From Dasania marina DSM 21967 (GTDB taxonomy: Bacteria > Pseudomonadota > Gammaproteobacteria > Pseudomonadales > Dasaniaceae), in contig NZ_KB891592.1 in NCBI RefSeq assembly GCF_000373485.1, positions 1 through 64,000 of the forward strand: DNA of 64,000 nt, in the 5' to 3' direction. Shown piece after piece: positions 38,975 through 58,762 of the stretch (its first letter is position 1; every line of letters starts with the position of its first letter). The translations under genes and the position numbers were made by a program. Below the pieces are notes generated by a model that saw only the letters and a list, made by a program, of their open reading frames with translations, did not search any database and had not been told where the DNA came from.

Positions 38975-41661
38975 CTTTAGGGAAGACGATGTTTCGCTCA
39001 TTACAGATACAAATACTATTGGTTGTTGCCTGTTTAATATCCATTTTGTTGGTGCAAGCTTTATTGTCTAAGGCGGCACAGGAAACCCTGATTGATAATC
39101 AAAGCCTCACCATGCAAGCTATGGCTAATATTGCCTTGGTGAATCGGCTAGAGCGCGATGTGGTCGATTTAAAGCGTAATGTTTTAATTTACAAAGACAC
39201 TGCTAGTGAGTCAGCTGTGTCACGGTTTAATGAACTTATCGACAGCGTTAATAAAGATCTGGGTACCTTTGAGCATAATGTCTCGGACATTAACGATGAG
39301 AGGTACAATGATTTAATTAGACGCATGCGTTCTCACCTGAAAGATTATCAAGATAATTTTGTGAGTGTTGTCAGTGGTAGAGCTAAGCGTGAAGATATAT
39401 ATAAAAATAAAATCATTAAAGGTTTTGACTATTTAGATAGCATGCTAGGCCTGCATCAGGATGATGAGGGTAATTATAAAATGCGTTATGAATTGATGTC
39501 TGCTAAGCGTTACATGCTGGGTTATATGTTAGACCCCGACTATCAATTAATAGAAAAATTTAATGGTCATATGGCTGCGGTGGAGGCGTACTTAAATAAT
39601 AGTTACCCTAACAAAGATGCGATGCGCGATACATTTCGTCACATAAGTGACGATTTTAATCAATTAACCCATCTGACCAGAGGGTATATATTTTTGGTTA
39701 ATGTGGTAATGGCTGGTTCCGCTAATGAGTTTTTGTTTTTAACGAAAGAGATTACAAAAAGTTTTACGGATAAGCAGCAGATTAATAACAACAAAATTAT
39801 TTCTGATGCCACTAAAACAAAACGTAATTCCAGGTTGGTTGTGATGGCTTCTATAGGTTTGTCCATTATGGTGGCTGTGTTTTTAATACTGCGAATTATT
39901 ATACCTGTTAGAAAGATCACCGATGTTTTTCGCAGGCTTTCTACTGGCGACGATGTTGAGGAGATTCCCTGTATAGAACGCAGTGATGAGATAGGTGACT
40001 TGGCCAAGGCGGCTAATATTTTTCATGATAAAAACAAAGAGTCGGTGGAATTATTAGAGAAAACGCAAAAGTTACATTTTGAACAAGAGGTCTTGAACTT
40101 AGAGCTGGCTATAGAAAAAGAAAATGCCGAGCTAGCGGCAGCTTCAAAAAGTATATTTTTGGCTAATATGAGTCATGAAATACGTACTCCTATGAATGGC
40201 ATTATCGGCTTGGTGCAGTTGGCTTTAAGAACTGATCTTGATAAAAAACAGCGCAGTTACTTGGAAAAAATCGCCTATTCTGGCCGTATTATGATGGGGG
40301 TTATTAACGACATACTGGATTTTTCAAAAATAGAAGCTGGCAGGCTGGATATAGAGCAGGTAGCGTTTTCGATAAATACTTTAATAGAAAACTTAATTGC
40401 TTCTGTGCGTGTTAAAGCCAAAGAAAAACAGTTGAACTTTCGGGTTAATTTGTTAACTAGTATGCCTGAGCATCTACTAGGTGACCCTTTACGTATCAGC
40501 CAAGTGTTATTAAATTTATGTAATAACGCAGTTAAGTTCACTGAGCAGGGTGAAGTGACTGTGGATATCAGTTTTTCCCCTAAACCGGTAGATGGCTCGG
40601 CATATCTTGTGGTTGATGTAAGCGATACCGGTATGGGTATGAGTGAGCAGCAACTGGAAACGGTATTTGATTCTTTTACCCAAGCCGATGACTCTACCAG
40701 TAGGCGTTTTGGTGGCACGGGTTTAGGTTTGGCTATTGTTAAGCAGTTGACAGAGTTAATGGGTGGAGAAGTTAAGGTTAAATCGGAGCAAGGGGTAGGT
40801 AGTTGCTTTACGGTAAACTGTAGCGTAGCAGAGGTAGAGAGCCTATCGGTATTGAGCGAGTTAGATGAGCGGCAGTTACATGCTTATTATTTGCCGGCAG
40901 GTGATAATGGTCTTATTTCGGATAATTATTTTAAATTTAGCCGTATGGAAAAAACAGCGCTTAGCCTAGAGCCGTTGTCAGAGCTGCCCTTGCCGGTAGG
41001 CGACGGTAAAACCTTGGTGTTAGTGGATGTAGTTAGCCAAAGCTTTGTTGACAAACATCACGTGTTGTTTGAACAGTTGTTTGATCAGGGTTATCCCATA
41101 GGCTTTATTACCGATATGCAGCCAGCCACTATAAGGCACGCGTTAAAACAGCACTTTAAGCTGCCGGTATTGTCGCACCCGTATTCGCCAGCTGATTTTT
41201 CACGTTTCATCCTGTCTATGATTTCTGGCGCTGCACAGCATAAAGAAGGCGATGCTATAGAGTCGCGCGGTAGTTTATTATTCCAGGGCCATGCTTTGGT
41301 AGTTGAGGATAATCGCATTAACCAAATGGTTGTGGGTGATATGTTGACTGACATGGGCTTGAGTTTTGAGATAGTCGAAAATGGTGAGGTAGCTGTTGAG
41401 AGAGTGACTAATGGTACAAGCTATGATTTAGTTTTTATGGATATACAAATGCCGGTAATGGATGGCCACACTGCCACCAAACGCATACGAGAGGCGGGTT
41501 ATGATGATTTAGTGATCTGTGGTTTATCAGCGAATGCCATGGCACATGATGCGGCCGACGCTAAAGTGTCAGGGATGAATGACTATGTTACCAAGCCCAT
41601 AGAGTGGGATGACTTGGTGGCGGTTGTTGAAAAGTATTTGAAAAGGGGAGTCGCTAGTTGA
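38971..41661 (+). CDS. TorS-like hybrid sensor histidine kinase
   Basis: The 896-residue protein has a transmembrane helix at about residues 8-32, a long helical periplasmic sensor domain (to about 285), a second membrane helix ([21 protein letters not shown]) and a HAMP domain. The kinase core follows with phospho-acceptor His402 ([14 protein letters not shown]) and N/G boxes ([25 protein letters not shown]). A degenerate receiver-like segment (about 640-770) precedes an intact REC domain with Asp824 ([12 protein letters not shown]). No HPt domain is present. Translation overlaps the binding-protein gene. An ATG at 38989 with GGAAG upstream is an alternative start. Confidence 0.88.
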
Positions 41662-43271: not shown

Positions 43272-43832
43272 ATGCCTACACATACGGTGTTAGCTAGTAA
43301 TATGCAGCCGCCATTTCCACCGCACTGTGAACAAGTGCTGTTTGGCATGGGGTGTTTTTGGGGGGCTGAGCGCAAGTTTTGGCAATTGCCGGGGGTGTAC
43401 ACCACCGCCGTGGGCTATGCTGGCGGCACTGGCGAAAACCCCAGTTATAATGATGTTTGCAGTGGCTTAACCGGCCATGCCGAAGTGGTGTTGGTGGTAT
43501 ACGATCCCCAGCAAAGAAGCTTTGAGAGCCTGTTAAGCTGTTTTTGGCAAAGCCATAACCCCACTCAAGGTATGCGCCAAGGCAACGATACCGGCTCGCA
43601 GTATCGCTCGGCCATCTATGTTAATAATGACAGCGCGCTAGCGCAGGCCGAAGCTTCCCAGCAGTGTTACCAAAAACAGTTGGATGCGCGGGGTCTACCT
43701 GCTATCACCACCGAAATTTTATTAATGCCACCATTTTATTATGCTGAGGACTATCACCAGCAATACTTGGATAAAAACCCCAATGGCTATTGTGGCTTGG
43801 GTGGCTTAGGGGTGGCCTACAGCGGCGCATAA
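43272..43832 (+). CDS. msrA: peptide methionine sulfoxide reductase MsrA
   Basis: The 186-residue protein has the MsrA active site [13 protein letters not shown] and follow-on motifs VGYAGG, GHAEVV and a [16 protein letters not shown] segment. It ends near [17 protein letters not shown], which carries a recycling Cys. MsrA repairs the S-epimer of methionine sulfoxide with thioredoxin. A strong AAGAGGAGAG ribosome site precedes the ATG. Confidence 0.94.
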
Positions 43833-43906: not shown

Positions 43907-45652
43907 ATGGATTATCTCGCCTGGTTAGATTTGCAGTGCCGTATGCTGCCCAATGTGCAGCGCGCCATTGTGGCGTTAGCGGCTGAGCCCGGTCAGTCGC
44001 TACAATTAATGGCTAGCTGGCCCCAGCAAACTATAGCGACCAGCGACTTATTAGACACCGCTACTTTGGCCGCTAGTCGGCGGGCACCGGTAGTCAGCGT
44101 GGCCGAAGATGCTAGCGGCCGCAGCATGATGTTGTTAGCGCAAACGCTAGCTACCCCGCAAGCGGCCGTTATTGTGGTGGAGTTACCCGCCCAGCATGAG
44201 CAGCAAAAGCTACTGCTACAGCTATTGGCTTGGGGCGAGTCATGGCTGCAGTTATTGGCGCAACAGCCAGCTAGCACGGCTAGTGGTGATGTTGAGGTGC
44301 CCGAACAAGATTACAGCGTACTGGCTGCAGCCTGCAGCGAGCCGCTACTCAAAACTTCAATAGAAGCTGCCGCTACCTGCTTAGCGCAATTGTTTGGCTG
44401 CCAACAAGTCGCTATAGGCCTAAAGTCAGGTGAGGATGTGGTGCTGCAGGGGCTGGCCCATAATACTGCTTTTAACGTCAAAACCAATATGGCCCGCAGT
44501 GTCGAAGAGCTAATGGCCGAGTGCCTACAGCACGGCCACGCGCTACAGGCGCCGCACACTTTAGCGGCTGCACAAACCATCGCCTGCCCTGCTCATCAAC
44601 ATTATGCCGAGTTACATAAAACCCCGATTTATAGCCTGCCTATGTGTCGGCAAGATCAGCAGTTGGGGGTGTTATCGCTGCAACGAGACCAGCCCTTTAA
44701 TGCCGAGGAAGAGCAGCGTTTGGCAACGCTTAGTGGCTTTTTGGGCGCATTATTTGAGGCTAAGCGGCTAAGTGAGCGCTCGCTACTACAGCGCGGCCGC
44801 GATAGCTTGCGGCAGGGCTGGGCGGCGGCAGTGACTAGCCACGGTGGTCGCGGCAAATACCTGTTGGTGGCGGTGGCGGTGTGCTTGGGCTTGTTGCTAA
44901 TGGGTTCGGGTACTTACCGGGTGGCGGCAGCGGCTAAATTAGAAGGCGTGATTCAACGAGCGGTGGTGGCGCCTATAGATGGTTATGTATCACAGGCGCA
45001 TGCCAGAGCCGGCGAGTCGGTAAGCTTAGGGCAGGTGATCGCCGAGCTAGATGATACCGAGCTGAAACTGGAATACCGACGCCTGCAAAATCAGCACGAT
45101 GAATACCAGCAGCAATACCGCAAAGAGCTGGCCGATAGAAACCTAGCGCAATCGCAAATCGTTCATGCACAAATGGCACAAGCGGCGGCCGAGCTGCAAT
45201 TGCTACAAGAACAGCTCAAGCGCACTCAGCTTACCGTACCTTTTGATGGCGTGATTATAGAGGGCGATTTAAGCCGTTCACTGGGCGCACCGGTGAGCAA
45301 GGGCCAGGTGTTGTTTGAAATTGCGCCGCTCAACGAATACCGCTTAGTGCTCAATATAGACGAGCGCGATGTGCCCCATGTAAAAGCCGGTCAGCACGGC
45401 CGTTTATTTCTCAACGCCTACCCTGATACCGCTATTGAGTTTGAAGTGAGCGATGTTGCCACTGTGTTCGAGCGCGATGGCGCGCGCATTAGCTACCGCA
45501 CCGAAGCACGCTTATTAGAAAACGCCTTATTTTTACGCCCCGGTATGCAGGGCCTAGCCAAGGTGGACGTGGGTGAGCGCCGCTATAGTTGGATGCTTAG
45601 CCACAGCTTTGTGGATTGGCTAAGCCTTAAATTATGGGCCTGGCTGCCATGA
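43907..45652 (+). CDS. GAF-domain HlyD-like membrane fusion protein
   Basis: The 581-residue protein has a GAF-like domain at about residues 130-290 (SIEAAATCLAQLFGCQQVAIG, then GVLSLQRDQPFNAEEEQRLATLSGFLGALFEA) and one membrane helix (YLLVAVAVCLGLLLMGSG, about 318-336). The HlyD adaptor part follows: a biotinyl-lipoyl half-motif (APIDGYVSQAHARAGESVSLGQVIAELDD), a coiled coil, the second lipoyl half (LTVPFDGVIIEGDLS) and a beta-barrel. A cytoplasmic ligand-sensing GAF joined to a periplasmic adaptor is unusual. Its stop overlaps the start of the M50 protease gene. Confidence 0.85.
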   Translation: MDYLAWLDLQCRMLPNVQRAIVALAAEPGQSLQLMASWPQQTIATSDLLDTATLAASRRAPVVSVAEDASGRSMMLLAQTLATPQAAVIVVELPAQHEQQKLLLQLLAWGESWLQLLAQQPASTASGDVEVPEQDYSVLAAACSEPLLKTSIEAAATCLAQLFGCQQVAIGLKSGEDVVLQGLAHNTAFNVKTNMARSVEELMAECLQHGHALQAPHTLAAAQTIACPAHQHYAELHKTPIYSLPMCRQDQQLGVLSLQRDQPFNAEEEQRLATLSGFLGALFEAKRLSERSLLQRGRDSLRQGWAAAVTSHGGRGKYLLVAVAVCLGLLLMGSGTYRVAAAAKLEGVIQRAVVAPIDGYVSQAHARAGESVSLGQVIAELDDTELKLEYRRLQNQHDEYQQQYRKELADRNLAQSQIVHAQMAQAAAELQLLQEQLKRTQLTVPFDGVIIEGDLSRSLGAPVSKGQVLFEIAPLNEYRLVLNIDERDVPHVKAGQHGRLFLNAYPDTAIEFEVSDVATVFERDGARISYRTEARLLENALFLRPGMQGLAKVDVGERRYSWMLSHSFVDWLSLKLWAWLP

Positions 45653-47856
45653 GTTCGCCCGGCGTAGATGCAGATATAGATTCGGCCAGTCCCAACCCCA
45701 GCCCCGGTGTCGGCATAGGTGCTGATGAAAGTATGGACCCCGCCAGTTGGGCGCAGCTAGCTGTATTAAAGCTCCAGCTGCGGCCGCATTTAGCGTTTTA
45801 TCTGCACCATTATCGAGGCCAGCCTTGGTATGTGTTAGCCGATGAGTTAGCGGGTAATTATTTTCGCCTGCCCGCCGCGGCCTTTCAGTTGCTCAGCTTG
45901 TTGGATGGCCGACATACCGTGGCCGAGGCCTATGCTCAGCTAGCGCAAACAGGCGTGGCGCCCAGCTATTACGAAGTCGCCGTGCTGCTAGGCAAGCTGC
46001 ACAACGCCCGCTTGCTACAGGGCGATATGCCCGCCGCTGCGGTGGGTGCGGCGCAACAGTCGCTACCTAAAAGCAGTGTTTGGCAGCGCCTGCGTCAGCC
46101 CTTGATGCAGCGTGTTGCGCTGATAGACCCCGACCGTTTGCTCAGCCGCTTACTACCTTGGGTGCAGCCGATTTTTAGCCCGGCGGGTTTTATGCTGTGG
46201 TTGCTGGTGGTGCTGTCGGCACTGTTGCTAGTGGGACAGCACAGCGCCGACATTAGCCAACACTTAGCCACCCGTTTTGCCGACCCGGTCAATATTTTAC
46301 TGTTGGGCCTGGCCTATCCCCTAATTAAAGCGCTGCATGAGCTAGCTCACGGTTTTGCCACCAAGGTATGGGGCGGCGAGGTGCATGAAATGGGGCTGAT
46401 GTTTATTGTATTTATACCGCTGCCCTATGTGGACGCCACCGCCAGCAATGGCTTTTACAGTAAGCGCCGCCGCATTTTGGTGGCCAGCGCTGGCATTATG
46501 GCGGAGCTGTGGTTGGCCGCTGTGGCTTTCTTGTTGTGGTCGCAGCTGGATACGGGTTTATTAAAAGATTTTTGCTTTAATGTTGCGGTGATTGGTAGCG
46601 TCTCCACGCTGTTGTTTAATGGCAACCCGCTGCTACGTTTTGATGGCTATTACATCTTGATGGATATGCTGGAAATTCCCAATCTGGGCAGCCGCTCCAG
46701 CCAATACCTAGGCTACCTGTGCAAGCGTTATCTCTATGGTTTTACTCAAGCGGCGTCGCCAGTAAGGGCTGAGGGTGAGCGCGGGTGGTTGCTGGGCTAT
46801 GGTGTGGCGGCGGGTATTTATCGTTTGTTTATTAGTCTGGTGATAGCGCTATACGTGGCCAGCCAATTTTTCTTTATCGGGGTGATCTTGGCGCTGTGGG
46901 CGCTGGCCAACCAGTGGCTGCTACCCTCCATTAAAATTGCCCGCTCGCTGTGGCAGCAGGCGCAACAGGCGCAGTTGCAAAAGCGTTTATTGGCGGTGAC
47001 CGGCGGCTTGGCGCTGGCCTTGTTGCTGATGCTATTTGTGGTGCCGGTGAGCGATAGCAGCTATGCCCAGGGGGTGGTAAGCCTGCCGGAGCAGTCCATA
47101 GTTCGTGCCGGTGCCGATGGTTTTATAGTGTCAGTACAGGCCAGCGATGGCGATGACGTGCAGGTGGGCCAGTCCTTATTCAGTCTCACTAACTATACCC
47201 TAGCGCAGCGTAGCCAGCGCTTGCAGGCCTACGGCGATGAGCTGGCAGCGCGCTATCAGCAGGCGCTAGTGCGTGACCCTGCCGAGGCGCAAAAATACGC
47301 TGCCGACCTGCGTCTTAACGCACAGGGCTTGGCCGATGTGCAGCAGCAGTTGGGCTCGCTGAAATTACTCAGCCCGGTTGCGGGGGTGTTATCCATGGTG
47401 GCGGCCAACGATATGCCTGGCCGCTATATTAAACAGGGCGATATCTTGGCCTATGTGATAGACAAGCAGTACCTGACGGCGCGGGTGGTGGTAAGCCAAG
47501 CCGATGTTGATAAGGTGAGGCGCCATACTCAGGCGGTACAGGTAAAAATTCATAACCGGCCCCAGCAAACCTGGCAGGCCAGCATCGTGCGTGAAGTGCC
47601 GCAGGCGTCCATGCGCTTGCCCAGTCGTTCCCTGGGTACTCAGGGTGGTGGCAATATAGCCGTAGACGCTAGGGATGATGAGGGTTTGGCGGCATTAGAT
47701 AGTTTGTTTCAGTTTGAAATTATCTTGCCCGCGCTGTCGCCAGAGGCGGCGTTGCCACACCGTTTGAGTGTGCGCTTTATCCATACCCGCCGGCCATTGG
47801 CCCAGCAAGGTTTAGCATGGTTGCAGCAGTTTTTGATGACTCGCTTCCAAATATAG
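45649..47856 (+). CDS. M50 (site-2-type) metalloprotease with PqqD-like and HlyD-like regions
   Basis: From the ATG at 45649 (overlapping the upstream TGA) the protein is 735 residues. About residues 30-115 resemble a PqqD-like winged helix (YVLADELAGNYFRLPAAAFQLLSLLDG). A multi-span membrane region carries the M50 zinc site HELAH (His230, Glu231, His234) and a distant Asp332 in NPLLRFDGYY, so the protease site is intact. After further helices, about residues 475-735 form a HlyD-like lipoyl/coiled-coil part (VVSLPEQSIVRAGADGFIVSV). This fusion is found in putative peptide- or protein-export systems. I infer that it handles the LEPR-XLL protein encoded downstream. Confidence 0.85.
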   Translation: MSSPGVDADIDSASPNPSPGVGIGADESMDPASWAQLAVLKLQLRPHLAFYLHHYRGQPWYVLADELAGNYFRLPAAAFQLLSLLDGRHTVAEAYAQLAQTGVAPSYYEVAVLLGKLHNARLLQGDMPAAAVGAAQQSLPKSSVWQRLRQPLMQRVALIDPDRLLSRLLPWVQPIFSPAGFMLWLLVVLSALLLVGQHSADISQHLATRFADPVNILLLGLAYPLIKALHELAHGFATKVWGGEVHEMGLMFIVFIPLPYVDATASNGFYSKRRRILVASAGIMAELWLAAVAFLLWSQLDTGLLKDFCFNVAVIGSVSTLLFNGNPLLRFDGYYILMDMLEIPNLGSRSSQYLGYLCKRYLYGFTQAASPVRAEGERGWLLGYGVAAGIYRLFISLVIALYVASQFFFIGVILALWALANQWLLPSIKIARSLWQQAQQAQLQKRLLAVTGGLALALLLMLFVVPVSDSSYAQGVVSLPEQSIVRAGADGFIVSVQASDGDDVQVGQSLFSLTNYTLAQRSQRLQAYGDELAARYQQALVRDPAEAQKYAADLRLNAQGLADVQQQLGSLKLLSPVAGVLSMVAANDMPGRYIKQGDILAYVIDKQYLTARVVVSQADVDKVRRHTQAVQVKIHNRPQQTWQASIVREVPQASMRLPSRSLGTQGGGNIAVDARDDEGLAALDSLFQFEIILPALSPEAALPHRLSVRFIHTRRPLAQQGLAWLQQFLMTRFQI

Positions 47857-47930
47857 CCAACTTATTGAATATTATGCTTTTTTCAGCTTGGCCGCTTTTA
47901 AATTAGCACTTAACTGTTATGCTTTAGGAA

Positions 47931-48866
47931 TTGTTTAGTTCATATGAGAGCCGCTACGTGTATTGCCACAAACAATCGATAATAAAAAAACCGTTAAACC
48001 GTCCATTTATGCTGTGTGTATTATTGGCGATCAACTCGCCCTTAAGCTGGGCTGAAGATAAACCGCTGCCCCCCTTAGACTGCGTAATCAGCCCCTATCA
48101 AACGGTGGACCTGTCTAGTTCTGTGGCTGGGGTGCTGGATAAAATCTATGTAGAAAAAAGCGATTTCATTGCTCAAGGCCAAGTGGCGGCAAGCCTAGAG
48201 GCTGGGGTGGAAAAATCTTCAGTGGTGTTGGCCAAGGCCAGGGCGGATATACAGTCCGAAGTTGAAGTGAGTAAGGTTAATAAAGCGTTTGATCAGCGCC
48301 GCAAAGAGCGTATAGACGTGCTCTACGAAAAGAAAAGCGTGTCCTTTGATACCAAAGATCAGGCTGAGCGCGAATACAATTTATCCACCTGGCGCTTACA
48401 GCAATCTCTGGATTTAAAAAATATACGCCAATTGGAGTTGCGCCGTGCGCAGGAACAGCTCAAACAAAAAACTATACGCACGCCTATAGACGGCTATGTA
48501 CTGCAGGTATTTAAAGAGGCTGGTGAATATGTAGAAGACCAGCCCATTATGCGTATAGCCCAACTAGACCCACTGTATGTTGAGGCCATAGTGCCTATAG
48601 AATTTTACGGCCGCATTCGTGCCGGTATGACGGCACAGGTACATCCAGAAACCAACGTGCAACAACCCAGAGTAGCGGTGGTAACGGTAGTCGATAAAGT
48701 GGGTGATGCTGCCAGCGGCACCTTTGCGGTAAGGCTTAATTTACCCAACCCTGATTATCAGTTACCCGCGGGCTTAAAATGTTCGATGAAGTTCACCGAA
48801 TCAGGCGCAGTTGCTAGCAGTGCCCAGCAGCAGAGCGCATCATCAGTCATAGCCGTGCCCCAATAA
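47931..48866 (+). CDS. HlyD/RND-type periplasmic adaptor
   Basis: This protein of up to 311 residues has a signal peptide (MLCVLLAINSPLSWA-ED) and the adaptor layout: lipoyl half-motif (SSSVAGVLDKIYVEKSDFIAQGQVAASLE), coiled coil (about residues 95-180), second lipoyl half (RTPIDGYVLQVFKEAGEYVED) and a beta-barrel. The listed start is TTG; a GTG at 47958 or ATG at 48009 is also possible and none has a well-placed ribosome site. There is no inner-membrane pump or TolC gene in the window, so partners must lie elsewhere or be the M50 protein itself. Confidence 0.82.
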   Translation: MFSSYESRYVYCHKQSIIKKPLNRPFMLCVLLAINSPLSWAEDKPLPPLDCVISPYQTVDLSSSVAGVLDKIYVEKSDFIAQGQVAASLEAGVEKSSVVLAKARADIQSEVEVSKVNKAFDQRRKERIDVLYEKKSVSFDTKDQAEREYNLSTWRLQQSLDLKNIRQLELRRAQEQLKQKTIRTPIDGYVLQVFKEAGEYVEDQPIMRIAQLDPLYVEAIVPIEFYGRIRAGMTAQVHPETNVQQPRVAVVTVVDKVGDAASGTFAVRLNLPNPDYQLPAGLKCSMKFTESGAVASSAQQQSASSVIAVPQ

Positions 48867-48948
48867 GTCGGCGTGTTAAGTGCTTATATAGCCCAAGGTA
48901 TCGATATGTTATTACTGATGCATAAATCGCTAGCTTGGAGTGCAAACC

Positions 48949-51900
48949 ATGAAGCCCCTTAGTATGATTTTTCGCCGCAAAGCGGCCGAAAAACTCCCCC
49001 TAGCGATGTATAACCTAGAATCACTGGAGCCTAGGTTACTCATGTCTGCCGACCCGCTAGGGGCCGCCGATCCCACCGGCTTATTAGGGCAAATAGACGA
49101 CCCACTGCTACTTGATGATCAAGCGGCCGCCGAACAACTGCTACAAGCCATAGCCACCAGCGCTCAAAACACGCCCATAATAACCGCCGCCAGCCCTGAT
49201 GCGATTAACCTCAGCAGCCTAGGGCAATTGTCCTATCAAGACAGCTTGAACGGCCCACAAGCCACCACTTTCCACAGCACCGATTCAGCAGCGGATGGCA
49301 GCACGGCATTAATGGACGACTTGGCTGCACTACTGCCTGCAGCCGATGACAACATCCGCCAAGAAATTATTTTTGTTGATACCAGCGTAGAGGATTACCA
49401 AACGCTGCTAGCGGGTATACCCAACAACGACGAGCAAACCCACTACACCATCATAGAATGGCAGCCCGGTGACGATGCCTTGGCTGACATTACCCATACC
49501 TTGCAAGCGTTAGGTGAGGTTGATGCCATACACATCGTCAGCCACGGTAATGACAGCGGCTTTGCCTTAGGTGACGAGTGGCTAAGCAGCAACACCCTAA
49601 ACGACTATCAACAATCGCTTAGCCAGTGGCGCGAATTTTTAGATAGCGAAGCCGACCTATTAATTTACGGTTGTGAATTGGCCGCTGGTGAAGCCGGCCG
49701 TGACTTATTAACCAGCCTAGCCAGCATCACCGGTGCGGATATAGCCGCCAGTGACGATTTAACCGGTGCGGCAGCATTAGGTGGCGATTGGCAGCTAGAG
49801 CATCATACCGGGCAAATCGATACGGCTATCGCGATTAATTTATCGGCGCAGGCAAGCTGGAATTCTACTCTTGGCCCACCGGGAACGGTGGATGCGCTGT
49901 GGTTAACCACGATAGGCGATGTGTCTGGCGCTAGCTCACCAGGCCTCGCTAACTGGAGTGCAGGTGAGTTATTAGAGGTTGCCGACCCTAACTTACGATT
50001 TGAGACTACACCTGTACCTGCTACCGGTACTACTGATGGTACCTTTACTGCTATTGTCGATTTCGATGATTTTAACCCCGTTAGCGTGGGTGGCAATGAT
50101 GATGTAAACATTCGTTCTATGCATTACGTGTCTACCAATATTACCGTAGGCACTAACGACACCTTCGATTTACAGCCAGGTGATGTGCTGGTGTCGGTTA
50201 ACGACGCCGAAACCCTTAAAAGTACTAATACTCTCGTAGTGGGTAAAGAGGATGTATTTGTCTTTAGGCCCGACACTGCCAATGACTACAGCTCAGGTAG
50301 TTTTTATATGTTACTTCAGGGGCTAGGTACTTCGGGTGATGAAGTAAGAGCTATTACTTTAGTTGAGCAACAAACGGACGTGGGGGGTACCACCCTCAAT
50401 GCGGGTACTTTCTTATTTACCCAAAAAAATGGTGGCGGTTTTAATCACGAGGATATTTTGACATTTAGCGCCGACGAGGTAGGGGCCGGTACCACCTCTG
50501 GCACTAAAACCGTGCTAATCAGCGGCGCTGACATTGGTATTTCAGAGAGTATTTCTGGTTTGGAGCTTATCGAAACTGATACCACGATTGCGGGTGCCCC
50601 GTTAACTTCTGGCAATATTCTGGTGAGTATCTGGGGTAGTGAGGATGTAGGCGATAACAATTTAGCCGCAACTGAATATGATGTATTTGTTCTCGATATC
50701 AGTAAAACTAGCTTAGAGGGGCCAGGGTTTACTGCTGAGGGTAATGCTACATTGTTATTTGATGGCGACGATAATGTCAGGCTAGACAGCGGCGGTGTGC
50801 ATATAAGCGGCCTAACGCTGGTGAGTGCACCTAATGCCGAGCCAACCTTAACCGCCACCGGTAATGACCCAAGCTTCACCGAGGGCGGGGCAGCAGCAAG
50901 TTTATTTAGTGGCGCCAGTGCTGACACCATCGAAGGCAGTCAAACATTTATCGGCATGGGACTGACCGTTACCAATGTTAATGACGGTAGCGATGAAAAA
51001 CTCAACCTTGATGGCACTGCTATTGAACTCACCAATGGCAACGGCGGTATCACCGCCACCAATAGCTTGACCTACAGCGTCAGCGTAGTGGGTTCTACGG
51101 CAACGGTGACAATTACTGGTGGCAGTTTAAGTGCCGCTGATACCCAAACCTTAGTCGACAACATTAGCTACCAAAACGACAGCGATGACCCCAATACTAG
51201 CAATCGCGTTGTTACCATTACCAGCTTGCAAGACAGCGGCGGCACAGCCAGTAGCGGCGACGATACTGCCGAGTTAAGCATAGCCAGCACCATTACCCTG
51301 GTCGGTGTTAACGATGAACCTACCTTAACCGCCACCGCCAGCAACCCCACCTTTACCGAAACGGGGGTAGCCCAAGGCCTGTTTAGTGGTGCCAGTGCCA
51401 GTACCATAGAAAGTGGCCAAACCTTTACCGCGATGACCTTAACCGTTACCAACGTCAATGATGGTAGTAATGAAAAACTCAACATCGATGGCAGCACCAT
51501 ATGGCTGATTAACACCATTCTCCCGGGGTTCACTGCTAACAATGGCCTAGTCTATAGCGTTAGCGTGGTGAGCGGCACGGCGACGATTAGTTTGAGTGGC
51601 AGCCTAAGTGAAGCAGAAACGCAAACACTGGTGGATAACCTGAGCTACCGGAACGACAGTGTTGTCCCTAGCACCAGCGATCGGGTCATCACTATTACCA
51701 GCCTGAAAGACAACGGCGGCACAGCCAATAGCGGCGATAATACCGCAGCACTCGCTCTTAGTAGTACGGTAACTATGCAAGAGGTGAACACTGAACCCGG
51801 TTTTAGCACCACGGCTACCGATCCTACGTTTATCGAAGGAGGGGCTGCTGCCAGCCTCTTTAGCGGTACTAATGCCTCGACTATAGAGCTGGGTCAAACA

Positions 51901-54042
51901 CTTACGGATCTGAGCCTCACCGTCACCAACGTTAATGATGGTAGTAACGAAGTGCTTAATATAGATGGCACCACCATTGCCTTAACCAATGGCAACGGTG
52001 GTATTACCGCCAACAATAGTTTGGTTTACAGTGTGAGCCTAGTGGGGAGCACAGCCACTGTGAGCTTGGTGGGAGGCACCATGACGGGCGCGCAAATGGA
52101 AGCGTTGGTTGATGGTATGAATTACCAAAACAACAGCGACGACCCCAGCATCAGCAGCCGGGTAGTCACCCTTGCCAACCTCAAAGACAGTGGCGGCGTT
52201 GCCAATGGTGGTGACGATACCGCCGCGTTAGGCATCGCCAGTACCGTAACCGTGCTAGCCGTTAACGACGAACCCACGCTCACCGCCACCGCCAGCAACC
52301 CTACCTTTACCGAGGGGGGGGCTGCGCAAAACCTATTTAGCGCAGCGGCGGTTGATACCATAGAGGCTGCACAAACCCTTAGCGAACTCACCCTAACGGT
52401 AAATAATGTTAATAACGGCGCTGATGAAATCCTAAACCTAGACGGCACGGCCATAGCGCTCACCAATAGCAGCAGCGGCGTCACCGCCACCAATGGTTTG
52501 AGCTATAGCGTGTCGGTAAGCGGCACCACAGCCACCATCACCCTAAGTGGCGGCAGCATAAATGCAGCCGCTACGCAAAACTTGGTTAAGGGTATTAGCT
52601 ACCAAAACAACAGTGAAGCACCTAATACCAGCAACCGAGTGGTGACCATCATTAGCTTTAAAGATAGCGGCGGCACGGCTAATGGTGGCGATGATGAAGT
52701 GGCGTTGAGTATTAGCTCTACCGTGACGGTACAGGCGGTAAATGATGTGCCTACCGGCAGTGTCACTATTACCGGCTCGGCGGTGGAAGACCAAAAACTC
52801 ACAGCTAACACCTCCACTATCAGCGATAACGATGGTTTGGGAACCTTTAGCTACCAATGGCAGCGCAATGGCGTGGCCATTAGCGGCGCTACCGGTAGTA
52901 GCTACATCCTAGGCGATACCGATGTCGATAAAGCGATACAGGTAGTGGTGAGTTATACCGACGGCAGCGGCAATGCAGAAAGCCTCAACAGCACGGCGAC
53001 AGCAGCAGTGGCTAATATCAATGACCCGTTAACCGGCAGTGTGGTTGTGGATGGCAGCACCTTTATGGGCAGCACGGTAACCGCTAACACCTCAGGGTTG
53101 TCGGATGAGGATGGCCTTGCCAGTTTTAGTTACCAATGGTTGCGTGACGGTGTGGCCATTAGCGGTGCTACCGGCAGTAGCTATTTGTTAAGCAGTGATG
53201 ACGCGAGTAGCGACATCAGTGTGCGGGTAAATGCTACCGACAGCCACGGCTCGGTAGAGGCTCGCACCAGTGCAGCGGTGGCGGTTGAGTCTGCGTTTGT
53301 AGTTGTGACTGAGCCGGTAGTGCCAGAGGCACCAGCGCCTGAAAGCCCAGACTCAGAAGAAAGTACTGAGGATACTGACGATAGTAGCACAGCAGAAGAA
53401 TCAGAAGAGTCAGAAGATGATGAAGAGAGCGAAGCTGCGGCCTATGTAGCGTCAGAGGCTGAAACGTTCGATAACCAGAGTCCAGCCTTTGGTAATTTGC
53501 AGGGTGTCGATTTAGAGGGCTTAACCGGCTTTGCTAATGAATTTGCTAATGGTGACAATGCATCCGCTAACAACAATGGCAGCGGTATTAACGTACGCTT
53601 GCTGAATAAAGATTCTGCCTTAGCCACGGCGGTAGAAGCCAGTGTGTCGGGCAGCGTTAATACTGGTTTTTCTTCTCTTATTGATCCTTTGGTGTTGGTG
53701 AGATCGCAAAATTTATCGGACAGCTTAGATAGCATGAGGAAAAATTTTATTGGCAAGGCTGAGCGCAGCCAATCCATATTGGGTGGCACAGTTACCGCTA
53801 CGGCAGGTTTGTCCGTGGGTTATGTGGTGTGGCTGGTACGCAGTGGCGTGTTATTAAGCAGTGCTTTAAGCGCCTTACCCGCATGGCGTTTTATTGATCC
53901 CCTGCCCATATTGTCGCAGGGCAATAGCGGCTTGGCGGGCGGAGATGATGAATCACTAGAGTCTATAGTGGCCAATAAAAGTAATGCCGCCAATGATCTG
54001 CCTGAACAGCAAACCGATAACAATAATAAGTTGAGTCATTAA
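48949..54042 (+). CDS. giant LEPR-XLL / DUF4347 repeat surface protein
   Basis: The 1,697-residue protein (ATG at 48949 with GGAG 9 bp upstream; GTG at 48940 is less likely) begins with a short basic segment and the LEPR-XLL motif ESLEPRLLMSADP. A DUF4347 domain covers about residues 140-307, with His199 (IVSHG) and Cys242 (YGCELAAGE). A further beta-rich region to about 630 precedes four 159-residue repeats (631-1266), two Ig-like repeats of about 93 residues and an acidic Ser/Glu/Asp linker (about 1465-1505). Near residue 1615 lies a hydrophobic segment (GLSVGYVVWLVRSGVLLSS). It has no Sec signal peptide. It looks like a secreted adhesin or matrix protein handled by the genes just upstream. 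Confidence 0.85.
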   Translation: MKPLSMIFRRKAAEKLPLAMYNLESLEPRLLMSADPLGAADPTGLLGQIDDPLLLDDQAAAEQLLQAIATSAQNTPIITAASPDAINLSSLGQLSYQDSLNGPQATTFHSTDSAADGSTALMDDLAALLPAADDNIRQEIIFVDTSVEDYQTLLAGIPNNDEQTHYTIIEWQPGDDALADITHTLQALGEVDAIHIVSHGNDSGFALGDEWLSSNTLNDYQQSLSQWREFLDSEADLLIYGCELAAGEAGRDLLTSLASITGADIAASDDLTGAAALGGDWQLEHHTGQIDTAIAINLSAQASWNSTLGPPGTVDALWLTTIGDVSGASSPGLANWSAGELLEVADPNLRFETTPVPATGTTDGTFTAIVDFDDFNPVSVGGNDDVNIRSMHYVSTNITVGTNDTFDLQPGDVLVSVNDAETLKSTNTLVVGKEDVFVFRPDTANDYSSGSFYMLLQGLGTSGDEVRAITLVEQQTDVGGTTLNAGTFLFTQKNGGGFNHEDILTFSADEVGAGTTSGTKTVLISGADIGISESISGLELIETDTTIAGAPLTSGNILVSIWGSEDVGDNNLAATEYDVFVLDISKTSLEGPGFTAEGNATLLFDGDDNVRLDSGGVHISGLTLVSAPNAEPTLTATGNDPSFTEGGAAASLFSGASADTIEGSQTFIGMGLTVTNVNDGSDEKLNLDGTAIELTNGNGGITATNSLTYSVSVVGSTATVTITGGSLSAADTQTLVDNISYQNDSDDPNTSNRVVTITSLQDSGGTASSGDDTAELSIASTITLVGVNDEPTLTATASNPTFTETGVAQGLFSGASASTIESGQTFTAMTLTVTNVNDGSNEKLNIDGSTIWLINTILPGFTANNGLVYSVSVVSGTATISLSGSLSEAETQTLVDNLSYRNDSVVPSTSDRVITITSLKDNGGTANSGDNTAALALSSTVTMQEVNTEPGFSTTATDPTFIEGGAAASLFSGTNASTIELGQTLTDLSLTVTNVNDGSNEVLNIDGTTIALTNGNGGITANNSLVYSVSLVGSTATVSLVGGTMTGAQMEALVDGMNYQNNSDDPSISSRVVTLANLKDSGGVANGGDDTAALGIASTVTVLAVNDEPTLTATASNPTFTEGGAAQNLFSAAAVDTIEAAQTLSELTLTVNNVNNGADEILNLDGTAIALTNSSSGVTATNGLSYSVSVSGTTATITLSGGSINAAATQNLVKGISYQNNSEAPNTSNRVVTIISFKDSGGTANGGDDEVALSISSTVTVQAVNDVPTGSVTITGSAVEDQKLTANTSTISDNDGLGTFSYQWQRNGVAISGATGSSYILGDTDVDKAIQVVVSYTDGSGNAESLNSTATAAVANINDPLTGSVVVDGSTFMGSTVTANTSGLSDEDGLASFSYQWLRDGVAISGATGSSYLLSSDDASSDISVRVNATDSHGSVEARTSAAVAVESAFVVVTEPVVPEAPAPESPDSEESTEDTDDSSTAEESEESEDDEESEAAAYVASEAETFDNQSPAFGNLQGVDLEGLTGFANEFANGDNASANNNGSGINVRLLNKDSALATAVEASVSGSVNTGFSSLIDPLVLVRSQNLSDSLDSMRKNFIGKAERSQSILGGTVTATAGLSVGYVVWLVRSGVLLSSALSALPAWRFIDPLPILSQGNSGLAGGDDESLESIVANKSNAANDLPEQQTDNNNKLSH
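50839..52746 (+). repeat. four tandem 477-bp (159-residue) coding repeats
   Basis: Each unit begins with Glu-Pro (E-P-T-L-T-A-T in three, E-P-G-F-S-T-T in the third), at 50839, 51316, 51793 and 52270, and the last ends at 52746. All four periods are exactly 477 bp with no length difference. Shared features are F-[TI]-E-x-G near the start, L-T-V-[TN]-N-V-N in the middle and a D-[SN]-G-G-x-A-[SN] region near the end. The bases differ between units, so the copies are not very recent, yet the length is fixed. Confidence 0.93.
52750..53307 (+). repeat. two tandem Ig-like coding repeats of about 93 residues
   Basis: Two units start T-G-S-V at 52753 and 53032, 279 bp apart. Each contains L-T-A-N-T-S or V-T-A-N-T-S, then G-x-x-S-F-S-Y-Q-W or G-x-F-S-Y-Q-W, and the identical G-V-A-I-S-G-A-T-G-S-S-Y. 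This is the pattern of bacterial Ig-like modules common in surface adhesins. The right edge is approximate. Confidence 0.8.
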
Positions 54043-54044
54043 GC

Positions 54045-56948
54045 ATGCAGGTTTTGAAACAATTTTTTAAAAGTAATGGCACTACCTTACGCCTGGCAAT
54101 GGGGCAGTGCAGTATATTAATTACCTTGCTATTAGTGGCGGCGTTTTTTGGTTTAATCCCTAACCGCGATCAAGCCATAATAGATGGCCGCGTGGCCGTG
54201 GCGGAAGCGATAGTCTCTAATGCTTCCATATTTATTACCCGTTCTGATCTAGGCCGCATGGAGGCCAACCTACGCTTAGTGCTAAGCCGTAACCCTGAAA
54301 TATTATCGGCGGCTATACGCAGAGGTGAGGCCAAAGCCATAATGATGGTAGGTGATCATGAAGCTAACTGGTTGGTAGATGGCGACAATAATAGTCAGCT
54401 GGTGGTGCCTATATGGGAAGGTGAAAGTCAATGGGGGCAAATAGAGTTACGTTTTGAGCCTCTACGGCCGCAAGGTTATTTGGGTTTTATGCTTGAACCC
54501 ATTTTTTTACTGATTGCGTTTTTATCGTTTACTTGTTTGTTGTTGTTTTTTCTTTATTTACGAAAAATGCTTAAAGATTTAGATCCATCACAGGCGGTGC
54601 CAGAGAGGGTGCGTTCAGCTTTAGATACCATGGCTGAAGGTTTGTTGGTGCTAGACGCCAAACAAAATATAGTCTTGGCGAATGAGGCATTCTCAACCTT
54701 GGTGCAACTCACGCGCGAACAATTGTTTGGCAGAAAGGTGTCGCGATTTGAGTGGTTTGATGGTGAAGATCAGCCCCTAATCCAAGCTAATTATCCCTGG
54801 ACCGAGGCTTTAAACGACAGCCTCGCACAAAAGGGCCGCACCATTAAGTTGCGCTTACCCGACAACAGTAACCGTACCTTTTTAACGAATTGTTCACCGG
54901 TATTAGGTAATGATGATAAAGCCGGCGGTGTGTTAATTAGCTTTGATGATATTACTGAGTTAGAAGAAAAAGAGCAGCAGTTGCGGATATCAAAGCTGGA
55001 AGCTGAACAAGCCAACCAAGCTAAGAGTGACTTTTTGGCCAATATGAGCCATGAAATCCGTACCCCCATGAATGCCATTATGGGCTTCACCGAAGTGCTA
55101 AAACGCGCTTACAGCAACCGCAACAGCGATAAAGTGCAGGGTGATAGCCTGCAATACCTCAACACTATCGCCAACAGCAGCCAGCACCTGCTGGAGTTAA
55201 TTAACGACATACTCGATTTATCTAAAGTAGAAGCCGGGCAGGTGGAGGTGGAAACCTTACCGTGTTCGCTGCATAGCATTATTCATGATGTGATACAGGT
55301 TATGCGGGTAAAAGCGCAAGAAAAAAACCTGAGCTTGGAATTTATCCCGGAAGGTGATTTTCCCGCGACTATACATTCGGACCCTGGACGCTTGCGACAA
55401 ATTCTTACCAACCTTATCGGCAATGCTATTAAGTTTACCGAGCAGGGTGGCGTGAAAGTGGTCACGCGCTTAGTTAGCGGCGGCAAAGATTCTATTATAG
55501 AAATTGATGTGTTGGATACCGGTATAGGCATGACCGAGCAACAGGCCAGCGCTGTATTCTCGCCCTTTGTGCAGGCCGACAGTTCTATTACCCGTCGCTT
55601 TGGTGGCACCGGCTTAGGGCTAACCATCAGTAAACGCTTTGCCGAAGCTTTGGGTGGTGACATTGTGGTTAGCAGCGAGCAAGGTGCGGGCAGTTGTTTT
55701 AAAACGCGCATCACCGCGGGCGATGTTAGCGGGGTAAGCCTGTTAAGCCCTGAGCAAATGACCACGGCGAATAAACTGGAAGAAACCCATAACCACGGTC
55801 GCTGGTTGTTTAAACCCGCCAAAATTTTAGTGGTTGATGATGGCGTTGAAAACCGCGAGTTGTTAAGCGTAGTGCTTACCGAAGTGGGCTTGGCTATTGA
55901 TACCGCAGACAATGGCCTGCAAGCGCTAGAGGCATTGGATGAACAGCACTATGATTTGGTGTTAATGGATGTGCAAATGCCGGTTATGGATGGTTTTACC
56001 GCGGTGGCTACAATGCGCCAGCAAGGCTTGCAAATACCTGTTGTTGCATTGACCGCTGACGCCATGAAAGGTGCAAGGGAAAAATGCCTACAGGCCGGCT
56101 ATTCAGGCTATATGACTAAACCTATCAATATAGAAAAATTGTTAGAGCTGGTGGCCGCAGAATTGGGCGGCCAGTGGCAGGACGATAACGATAGTGATGT
56201 CACGATTCCTACACTAGCGACAGAAAACAGTGATGTAGAATCAATTGCTACCGATGACAGCCCCATAGTGAGCAGCTTATGGGCTAATAAAAAGTATCAA
56301 ACTATTGTCAATAAATTTGTGCAGCGCTTGCAGCAACAGCTCAATACTATAGAAACTGCAGTGCAGAAAAATGAGTATAAAACTTTGCAGGACTTAGGCC
56401 ATTGGTTAAAGGGCTCGGCGGGGTCAGTGGGCTTCCATCAATTTAATGAGCCCGGTAAGGCGCTAGAGGATTTTGCAAAGCAACAGGATAACGCTGGGCT
56501 AGAGGCAACCCTAGCGCGTATTAAAAAGCTAACCCAGCGGGTGCAGGCAGGGATAAGCGATACGGAGCCAGCAGTAGTGCCGCGTCAAGCCGCGCCCGCG
56601 TCACACGTTACTAGCTCAAACCATCAGCCCGTTGGGGAGGTAACATCATCGCTGATAGGCAACCCAAAGCTGCGACCCATTATAGAGAGATTTGTTATGC
56701 GTTTAGAGGCGCAACTGCACGCTATGGATGCCGCTGTAGAACAACATGATTTTGTTAGAGTCGCCGACCTAGCTCACTGGTTGAAAGGGTCGGCCGGCAC
56801 AGCCGGTTTTGGTGTATTTACCGAGCAGGCTGCTGAATTAGAGCTACAGGCTAAGCAGCAAAGCGTAGAACAAGTTAAAGCGATTATGAAAACCATTAGA
56901 GCGTTGTTTGAGCGTATAGGAAAAGCCGAAGTTAACGACACGGTTTAA
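54045..56948 (+). CDS. hybrid histidine kinase with PAS, REC and two HPt domains
   Basis: The 967-residue kinase has a membrane helix at about 15-37, a periplasmic part, a second helix at about 148-170, a PAS domain (TMAEGLLVLDAKQNIVLANEAFS, about 185-310), HisKA with His336 ([15 protein letters not shown]) and an ATPase with GGTGLGL. The REC domain has Asp642 (VLMDVQMPVMDG). Two HPt domains carry His786 (GHWLKGSAGSVGF) and His911 (AHWLKGSAGTAGF). The gene begins 2 bp after the giant surface protein stop and precedes the REC-GGDEF-EAL gene by 29 bp, so the three are probably co-transcribed. Two HPt domains could send phosphate to two receivers. Confidence 0.9.
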   Translation: MQVLKQFFKSNGTTLRLAMGQCSILITLLLVAAFFGLIPNRDQAIIDGRVAVAEAIVSNASIFITRSDLGRMEANLRLVLSRNPEILSAAIRRGEAKAIMMVGDHEANWLVDGDNNSQLVVPIWEGESQWGQIELRFEPLRPQGYLGFMLEPIFLLIAFLSFTCLLLFFLYLRKMLKDLDPSQAVPERVRSALDTMAEGLLVLDAKQNIVLANEAFSTLVQLTREQLFGRKVSRFEWFDGEDQPLIQANYPWTEALNDSLAQKGRTIKLRLPDNSNRTFLTNCSPVLGNDDKAGGVLISFDDITELEEKEQQLRISKLEAEQANQAKSDFLANMSHEIRTPMNAIMGFTEVLKRAYSNRNSDKVQGDSLQYLNTIANSSQHLLELINDILDLSKVEAGQVEVETLPCSLHSIIHDVIQVMRVKAQEKNLSLEFIPEGDFPATIHSDPGRLRQILTNLIGNAIKFTEQGGVKVVTRLVSGGKDSIIEIDVLDTGIGMTEQQASAVFSPFVQADSSITRRFGGTGLGLTISKRFAEALGGDIVVSSEQGAGSCFKTRITAGDVSGVSLLSPEQMTTANKLEETHNHGRWLFKPAKILVVDDGVENRELLSVVLTEVGLAIDTADNGLQALEALDEQHYDLVLMDVQMPVMDGFTAVATMRQQGLQIPVVALTADAMKGAREKCLQAGYSGYMTKPINIEKLLELVAAELGGQWQDDNDSDVTIPTLATENSDVESIATDDSPIVSSLWANKKYQTIVNKFVQRLQQQLNTIETAVQKNEYKTLQDLGHWLKGSAGSVGFHQFNEPGKALEDFAKQQDNAGLEATLARIKKLTQRVQAGISDTEPAVVPRQAAPASHVTSSNHQPVGEVTSSLIGNPKLRPIIERFVMRLEAQLHAMDAAVEQHDFVRVADLAHWLKGSAGTAGFGVFTEQAAELELQAKQQSVEQVKAIMKTIRALFERIGKAEVNDTV

Positions 56949-56977: not shown

Positions 56978-58762
56978 ATGAACGAAAAGATTTCTAAATT
57001 ACATGTTGATGAACTTTTTACGCAGTTGAAAGATGCTGTCATTATGATGGTCGATGATGAGCCTTTGCTAATGGAATTGCTGCAGGCTTTTTTAGAAGAA
57101 GAAGGCTATAAAAATTTTATTGCGGTAGAAGATTCACGTAAGGCCATGGAAATTCTGGATACAAAACGTCCCGATATTTTATTGCTGGATTTAAATATGC
57201 CGCATGTGGATGGCTTTGATATATTAGAGGCTGTTCGCAAGCTTAAAATGATGCAGAAGATTCCGGTGATAGTACTGACTTCCTCCAGTGACGGTGCAAC
57301 CAAGCTCAAAGCCTTGGAGTTGGGAGCGACAGATTTTCTTTCTAAGCCGGTAGATTCTAGTGAACTAGCCCTGCGTTTGCGTAACACCTTAATGGTTAAA
57401 GCCTATCAGGATCAGCTTACCTACTATGATGCGCTTACCCATTTGCCCAATCGGCAATTGTTTTTAGATAGATTAGAGTGGTCACTCAAAAAAACGCGCA
57501 GAGACCATGAGCGCATGGCGCTATTAAATATAGGCCTAGATAAGTTTAAACAGGTGAATGATAGCCTGGGGCCACGAACTGGTGATGAAATTTTAACAGA
57601 AGTCTCTATGCGCTTGATAGAAAGTGTGCGTGAGAGTGACTTGGTGTCGCGCTTAGGGATAGATGACCTATGGCGTCAGTTGGCCCGTTTGGGCGGTGAT
57701 GAGTTTTCTATCTTGCTACCGCAGGTGGCGCAGGATGATAGTGCCGCCTTTGTCGCCGAGCGCATACAGCATGCCTTAGCTCAGCCTTTTGTGGTAGATG
57801 GTGAAGAAATTTATATCAGTGCCAGCATAGGAATAGCGCTATATCCCAATGATGGCACCGAGAGTGATGTGCTAATGCAAAATGCCGGTGCTGCTACCGC
57901 CTATGCTAAACAGCAAGGTGTTAATAGCTATGCGTTTTATTCCAAAGAGATTAATGAACTATCTAAAAAACGGCTCAGCATTGAAGCCGCTTTGCGCCGC
58001 GCCGTGGAAAATAACGAGTTTGTTTTGCATTACCAACCGAAAATTGATTTGCATGCGGGTAAGGTAACAGGTTGTGAAGCTCTCATACGTTGGAATAGTC
58101 CCGAAATGGGTATGGTGCCGCCGTTTGAATTTATTTCTATAGCGGAAGAAAGTGGCTTGATAGTGCCTATAGGCACTTGGGTTATTGAAGAAGCTTGTCG
58201 ACAGCAGGTAGATTGGCGGCAGCAGGGGATTGGCGATTTAATGGTGGCGGTAAATGTGGCGGGTCCTCAATTTAAAATGGCCAACCTACAGCACGTTATT
58301 GAGTCTGCCATTAATGATTCGGGTATTGATCCGCGGTATTTAAGGCTGGAAATTACTGAAGGCATGATGATGGGCGGCGAAGATAGCCTCATAAAAAAAC
58401 TGAACGACATTAAAGCCTTAGGCCCCAGTTTTTCTATAGATGACTTTGGTACCGGTTATTCGTCATTGAGTTATCTGAAGCGTTTTCCTATTGATGAATT
58501 AAAAATTGATCGGTCTTTTATTATTGATGTGCCAGGGGTAAGAGACGATGCCGCAATAGTAAAAGCGATTATCGCCATGGCGCAGAGTTTGGAGTTAAGC
58601 GTGGTGGCTGAAGGTGTTGAAGAACTGAGCCAATTAGAGTTCTTAAAATCTTTGCACTGTGATGTTATCCAGGGTTTTTACTTTAGTAAGCCTTTGCCTG
58701 CTGAAGATTTTGCAGCGTTTGTGCTTGCAGGTGGCGAGCTGGATGCGCTGCATAAATCCTAA
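56978..58762 (+). CDS. response regulator with GGDEF and EAL domains (c-di-GMP turnover)
   Basis: This 594-residue protein has a REC domain with Asp71 (LLLDLNMPHVDG), a GGDEF domain with an intact G-G-D-E-F at residues 239-243 and an EAL domain starting at Glu367 (CEALIRWNSPEMG) with later motifs EITEGMMM, DDFGTGYSSLSYL and VVAEGVEEL. Both catalytic signatures look complete, so it may make or degrade cyclic di-GMP depending on phosphorylation. The HPt domains of the preceding kinase are the obvious phosphodonors. AAGGAT stands upstream of the ATG. Confidence 0.92.
   Translation: MNEKISKLHVDELFTQLKDAVIMMVDDEPLLMELLQAFLEEEGYKNFIAVEDSRKAMEILDTKRPDILLLDLNMPHVDGFDILEAVRKLKMMQKIPVIVLTSSSDGATKLKALELGATDFLSKPVDSSELALRLRNTLMVKAYQDQLTYYDALTHLPNRQLFLDRLEWSLKKTRRDHERMALLNIGLDKFKQVNDSLGPRTGDEILTEVSMRLIESVRESDLVSRLGIDDLWRQLARLGGDEFSILLPQVAQDDSAAFVAERIQHALAQPFVVDGEEIYISASIGIALYPNDGTESDVLMQNAGAATAYAKQQGVNSYAFYSKEINELSKKRLSIEAALRRAVENNEFVLHYQPKIDLHAGKVTGCEALIRWNSPEMGMVPPFEFISIAEESGLIVPIGTWVIEEACRQQVDWRQQGIGDLMVAVNVAGPQFKMANLQHVIESAINDSGIDPRYLRLEITEGMMMGGEDSLIKKLNDIKALGPSFSIDDFGTGYSSLSYLKRFPIDELKIDRSFIIDVPGVRDDAAIVKAIIAMAQSLELSVVAEGVEELSQLEFLKSLHCDVIQGFYFSKPLPAEDFAAFVLAGGELDALHKS

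Follow-up and report, generated by a model that had tools for sequence, protein, structure and literature searches.

Our analysis of a 64,000-nucleotide stretch of Dasania marina DNA (hereafter, the window) leads us to favor, with some reservation, the view that four adjoining genes form a SecA-less variant of a widespread module that exports, processes, and displays giant LEPR-XLL proteins. While the individual parts of this module have already been named, the module as a whole is apparently undescribed: we found no description of it among open-licence literature on LEPR-XLL, DUF4347, or combinations of M50, HlyD, and SecA.

Gene organization of the module

The four genes occupy positions 43907-54042, all on the plus strand (as are their domains and the two signaling genes described below). 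Inspection of the window's open reading frames placed them where the initial annotation had, as consecutive genes with an ATGA overlap between the first two, and led to small start-site corrections. The first gene (43907-45652) encodes a GAF-HlyD protein of 581 aa, in which Pfam and NCBIfam profiles delineate a cytoplasmic GAF part (residues 154-280, 44366-44746; Pfam PF01590, 26.2 bits versus a cut-off of 22.4), a single transmembrane segment (residues 318-336), and a periplasmic adaptor domain (HlyD_3, 68.4 bits). The second (45649-47856, starting at ATG 45649) encodes a PqqD-M50-HlyD membrane protease/adaptor of 735 aa, recognized from profiles, a conserved site, and a structural model. The third (47931-48866, with an uncertain TTG start) encodes a periplasmic adaptor of the HlyD type (RND_mfp, 105.7 bits, above the cut-off of 94.9), whose N-terminus is Sec-like. 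HlyD_3/RND_mfp profiles scored above cut-off in the first and third proteins and HlyD_3 in the second, while no HlyD-type protein of the four-gene set reached the type_I_hlyD cut-off in profile searches. The fourth gene (48949-54042) encodes a giant protein of 1697 aa with profile matches to LEPR-XLL and DUF4347; its start is likelier at ATG 48949, which has TTGGAG ~8 nt upstream, than at the listed GTG 48940.

Two signaling genes follow. A hybrid sensor histidine kinase gene (54045-56948, encoding a periplasmic sensor domain at 54081-54614 and PAS, HisKA, REC, and Hpt domains) begins 3 bases past the stop codon of the giant gene, and domain profiles identify the product of the next gene (56978-58762) as a REC-GGDEF-EAL response regulator, the likely output of the sensor kinase. 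These two genes and a conserved C-terminal domain in the giant were absent from the initial annotation. On the other side, a methionine sulfoxide reductase A gene (43272-43832) lies immediately 5' of the module and has kept this position in the genus's other genome (L068). Further upstream (37685-41661), a periplasmic solute-binding protein gene overlaps a hybrid histidine kinase gene, forming a second likely sensory pair.

Conserved pairing of M50-HlyD proteases with LEPR-XLL giants

The pairing of M50-HlyD proteins with LEPR-XLL giants is strongly conserved. In a survey of 245 genomes of the window's order (with LEPR-XLL matches accepted at E 0.005 or better), M50-HlyD was present in 56 genomes overall and in 24 of the 25 with a clear LEPR-XLL match (hypergeometric p 8.5e-17). 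Where a LEPR-XLL match shared a contig with an M50-HlyD gene, the two lay within 7 kb of each other in 17 of 20 cases. One genome (G166) encodes a strong LEPR-XLL protein (L045, 34.9 bits) and yielded no M50-HlyD gene; since this is a draft of 220 contigs, the M50-HlyD gene may fall in a gap.

A scan of public genomes extended the pairing well beyond the order, returning 80 named relatives from Proteobacteria, Desulfobacterota, Myxococcota, Nitrospirota, Rokubacteria, and Omnitrophota. Of 40 genomes in which named relatives occur, 36 have LEPR-XLL, and in 32 of these 36, from several phyla, a LEPR-XLL giant lay within 8 kb by coordinates, assuming contig identity. The neighborhood search proposed with the initial annotation was thus run and passed, and hypergeometric tests reject a chance association of M50-HlyD and LEPR-XLL.

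Six-frame profile searches within 10 kb of the M50 gene found GAF-HlyD at 76 of the 80 loci, a SecA-like gene at 66, HlyD at 58, and giant or LEPR frames at about 47, while ABC-signature frames appeared at only 4 and an adjacent TolC gene at about 10. As the loci had been ranked on how closely they resemble the query, the counts describe the near family and are no unbiased survey. Other genes recur in these neighborhoods. SapC-family (PF07277) genes occur in or beside many SecA-containing modules, and DUF3467 genes lie directly 5' of GAF-HlyD in many further modules (loci for the two together: L152, L154, L166, L176, L181, L188, L193, and L208).

The PqqD-M50-HlyD protein and proposed leader recognition

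The initial annotation had reported that the protease keeps its HELAH and FDG motifs, and our alignments bear this out and locate the catalytic residues. The HELAH zinc site (residues 230-234, 46336-46350) supplies His230, Glu231, and His234 and is invariant in alignments A1 and A5; the FDG motif (46639-46647), the second part of the M50 site, contains Asp332, which is invariant in alignment A5. None of these four residues varied in an alignment of 50 relatives. The Pfam M50 score (20.8 bits) lies under the cut-off of 27.2; support comes from the daptide HExxH model NF041824 of NCBIfam, which gave 160.9 bits, itself below the equivalog cut-off of 300. In an AlphaFold2 model (mean pLDDT 88.5), membrane helices follow the PqqD-like part and precede the adaptor, with the HExxH and the downstream Asp within helices. 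We interpret the protein as a predicted M50 peptidase with intact active-site residues. Its C-terminal region (about residues 475-717, 47071-47799) is a HlyD/MexA-like adaptor domain, recognized by profiles and by a Foldseek match to MacA/MexA (E 1e-10).

The N-terminal part of the protein is the likely leader-binding domain. A PqqD/RRE-like domain (about residues 61-123, 45829-46017) has a Pfam PqqD score of 18.1 bits, which is also under its cut-off, and a profile match to solved PqqD structures (3g2b, E 9e-4); the model places three strands and then three helices at residues 49-119.

Leader and protease also vary together. The M50-HlyD tree (FastTree) contains two well-separated clades, with a support of 100 for clade B. 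On contigs that carry both genes, the leader beside a clade A M50 gene is LEPRxLxS(A/G) in 28 of 28 pairs and that beside a clade B gene is LEPRxLxD(G/A)A in 14 of 14, so that the motif matches the protease clade in all 42 (Fisher p 1.9e-11). As each M50 clade is a single branch, this match may reflect one ancestral change; it fits leader recognition by the protease, short of proof. In clade B loci, whose substrates carry LEPRxLFDGA, the M50 gene is often separated from the giant gene by one to three small genes of the phage tail-collar (MdpB-like) type (seen in L092, L094, L096, L097, L099, and L101).

The giant protein and its sensory partner

As first described, the giant protein begins with LEPR-XLL and has no Sec signal. 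The leader motif (LESLEPRLLMSADPL..., 49012-49074) scored 32.2 bits against the LEPR-8K/NF012209 model (cut-off 17), and no Sec signal was found in the protein, whose leader lacks a hydrophobic core. The search of the window's genome for a second clear LEPR-XLL protein came out negative, giving one strong match and three weak, chance-like ones (10.7 to 17 bits). A Vibrio genome paper describes a LEPR-XLL giant of ~8000 aa that carries RTX and serralysin-like domains and, in its passages on that protein, names no export route (PMC10868602).

Downstream of the leader lies DUF4347 (49366-49872; Pfam, 175 bits), a caspase/legumain-like domain with a putative dyad of His199 (49543) and Cys242 (49672), the latter being the sole cysteine among the giant's 1697 residues. 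The His and Cys of the H-G...Y-G-C pattern are invariant across 27 relatives, 4 of which gave weak matches to Peptidase_C80. The leading Foldseek matches of the DUF4347 model, to the T6SS effector Tce1 and to legumain, had low TM-scores. From sequence and model together, DUF4347 is likely a caspase-like self-processing domain. PA0256, which has DUF4347, appears in an earlier list of putative T6SS toxins (PMC8262886). Repeat analysis delimited four tandem copies of a 477-nt (159-aa) unit at 50832-52700.

Within the final 120 residues of the giant protein lies the conserved C-terminal domain (53677-53955, alignment A3), which has moderately hydrophobic segments and ends in PAWRFIDPLPIL, conforming to the pattern PAWRxxDPLPIL. 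A different ending, of the HExxHxxGxxH metzincin-like type, occurs in the giants upstream of five other modules (L072, L074, L176, L184, and L188). The adjoining kinase carries a periplasmic sensor domain, about 180 residues long and undescribed, whose outputs vary: it is joined to a histidine kinase in the window and close relatives, and to PAS-GGDEF or PAS-GGDEF-EAL elsewhere. Among the 245 genomes, the sensor domain and the C-terminal domain occurred in 14 each and together in 13 (p 1.5e-19), usually in adjacent genes, and all 14 sensor-domain genomes also had a clade A M50. In the sole sensor genome with no C-terminal match, the giant gene is masked by N (L086). These patterns are strong evidence, drawn from gene co-occurrence, that the two domains are a partner pair, and they point to c-di-GMP.

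A truncated SecA-like ATPase in most relatives

The initial annotation had left the energy source of export open. For the family, the SecA-like gene near the M50 gene at most loci supplies a likely candidate; the window has no such gene. The SecA-like protein (about 660-720 aa) matched the SecA_DEAD, P-loop, and preprotein-binding domains. Among 17 aligned proteins, wing/scaffold and SEC-C regions were confined to the housekeeping SecA control, and the SecA-like proteins had neither. Walker A (TGEGKT) was letter-perfect in 52 of 61 SecA-like copies. Three SecA-like frames (L072, L168, and L192) showed neither Walker A letters nor a DExD motif, as if the ATPase had decayed and kept its place in the operon.

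In the order, the short SecA-like gene was found in 12 of 245 genomes, all with a clade A M50 (p 2.3e-13), and this restriction makes it the likely motor. We conclude from this association that the family probably draws its energy from the SecA-like ATPase. The window's genome yielded only canonical housekeeping SecA and no SecA-like gene. Its M50 protein sits in a SecA-less clade of seven (FastTree support 99), and no SecA-like gene was found near the M50 gene in relatives of this clade, so the motor cannot be essential to every variant. SecA-less members are spread over several gammaproteobacterial groups, and the M50 tree requires 8 changes to account for the SecA label. Our guess is that the window variant draws its energy from housekeeping SecA.

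Proposed mechanism and alternative readings

We propose that the PqqD-like part of the M50-HlyD protein would bind the LEPR-XLL leader in the cytoplasm and that the M50 site would trim this leader at or near the conserved S-A-D step. Judging by their domain types, the GAF-HlyD protein, the M50-HlyD protein, and the periplasmic HlyD adaptor, together with a TolC-type channel encoded elsewhere, could make up an envelope-spanning conduit. The GAF domain might, as the initial annotation suggested, render export responsive to a ligand. In most relatives, the push would come from the truncated SecA-like ATPase of the same operon, and in the window's genome the proton-motive force or housekeeping SecA would have to supply it. 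Once the giant is across, its single-Cys DUF4347 domain may carry out self-processing, and the C-terminal domain may hold the giant at the inner membrane beside the partner sensor kinase; anchoring is uncertain since the segments are only moderately hydrophobic. The kinase, in turn, would report to the GGDEF-EAL protein.

A bolder form of this proposal, possible but tentative in our estimation, makes LEPR-XLL proteins the substrates of a separate secretion class built from a SecY-independent truncated SecA-like ATPase, PqqD-M50-HlyD, and HlyD/TolC, with the window holding a motorless variant that has a C-terminal tether and a c-di-GMP sensor. Alternatively, LEPR-XLL could be an atypical Sec signal, such that SecYEG/SecA carries the giant across the inner membrane while M50-HlyD and the adaptors trim the leader and serve outer-membrane passage. 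This would suit a genome whose only SecA is the canonical one, with relatives adding the SecA-like motor, but the missing hydrophobic core of the leader and the missing wing/scaffold part, which serves SecY, make it unlikely. Regulated intramembrane proteolysis offers another reading: M50 proteases commonly have signaling roles, and the window's subtype has, next to the module, a sensor gene whose periplasmic domain is conserved, so M50-HlyD might be a signaling protease acting with that sensor and taking no part in transport. Most relatives, however, have no such sensor and yet keep the giant, the adaptors, and the SecA-like ATPase, and three HlyD-type adaptor domains are poorly explained in a purely signaling unit; we consider this reading improbable.

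Classical type I secretion through an ABC transporter encoded elsewhere would account for the HlyD proteins, as its adaptors, and for the several TolC-type OEP proteins in the genome, none of which is encoded beside the module genes. The initial annotation had noted that no type I secretion ABC ATPase lies nearby, and at curated cut-offs this extends to the whole genome: no exporter of the HlyB/LssB/PrtD type scored above the TIGR03375 cut-off, and the best three ABC candidates, MsbA-like proteins of about 600 aa, fell under the TIGR03375, TIGR01846, and TIGR01842 cut-offs. A hidden type I ABC exporter was rejected on these grounds. With ABC frames rare near the module and the conserved signal at the N-terminus, we hold classical type I secretion to be very improbable. 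We give equally little credence to the idea that the M50 and HlyD genes serve the maturation and export of a small peptide, with the giant only a neighbor. The nearest NCBIfam models are indeed peptide-maturation proteases (daptide HExxH and YydH/LiaK), but the daptide match falls below the equivalog cut-off, it is the giant protein that is conserved across phyla as a substrate-like partner, and M50-HlyD and the giant co-occur at the genome level almost without exception.

Relation to known systems and biological meaning

The module acts like a dedicated secretion system and, with no ABC ATPase, falls outside the definition of type I secretion. Like HlyB-HlyD-TolC and LapBCE/LapA, it combines HlyD-type adaptors, an expected TolC channel, and a giant repeat-rich substrate, but its leader is N-terminal and a membrane protease stands in the exporter's place. 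A link to c-di-GMP recalls LapA/LapD, though the window giant has a conserved C-terminal domain whereas LapA has an N-terminal retention module. With SecA2 accessory systems, the module shares, in most relatives, an extra SecA-type ATPase beside dedicated large surface proteins; it differs in that the SecA-like protein is truncated, that no SecY2 gene was seen among the conserved neighbors, and that the window's genome has one full SecA only and no second SecA.

Like the M50 proteases that act on leaders in RiPP pathways (daptide HExxH and YydH/LiaK epipeptide), the protein places a PqqD-like part ahead of an M50 membrane protease with HExxH and a downstream Asp. Unlike them, it is fused to an HlyD domain, scores under the equivalog cut-offs, and is paired with a protein of 1,000 to 14,000 aa, where they have a short precursor. 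DUF4347, through its invariant His and Cys, its legumain-like Foldseek match, and its weak C80 matches, resembles the clan CD autoprocessing domains (MARTX CPD/C80 and legumain) but is a separate family, and its cleavage is a prediction from sequence.

LEPR-XLL proteins run to thousands of residues, and their database names rest on the N-terminal motif alone. Our data provide a concrete, conserved candidate machine for their exit from the cell. It consists of a protease that has a likely leader-binding domain, of three adaptors and, in the majority of species, of a dedicated SecA-like motor. If this proposal is true, it would add a secretion route for giant surface proteins of Gram-negative bacteria, and the window's subtype would hold a direct wire from the giant protein to c-di-GMP control.
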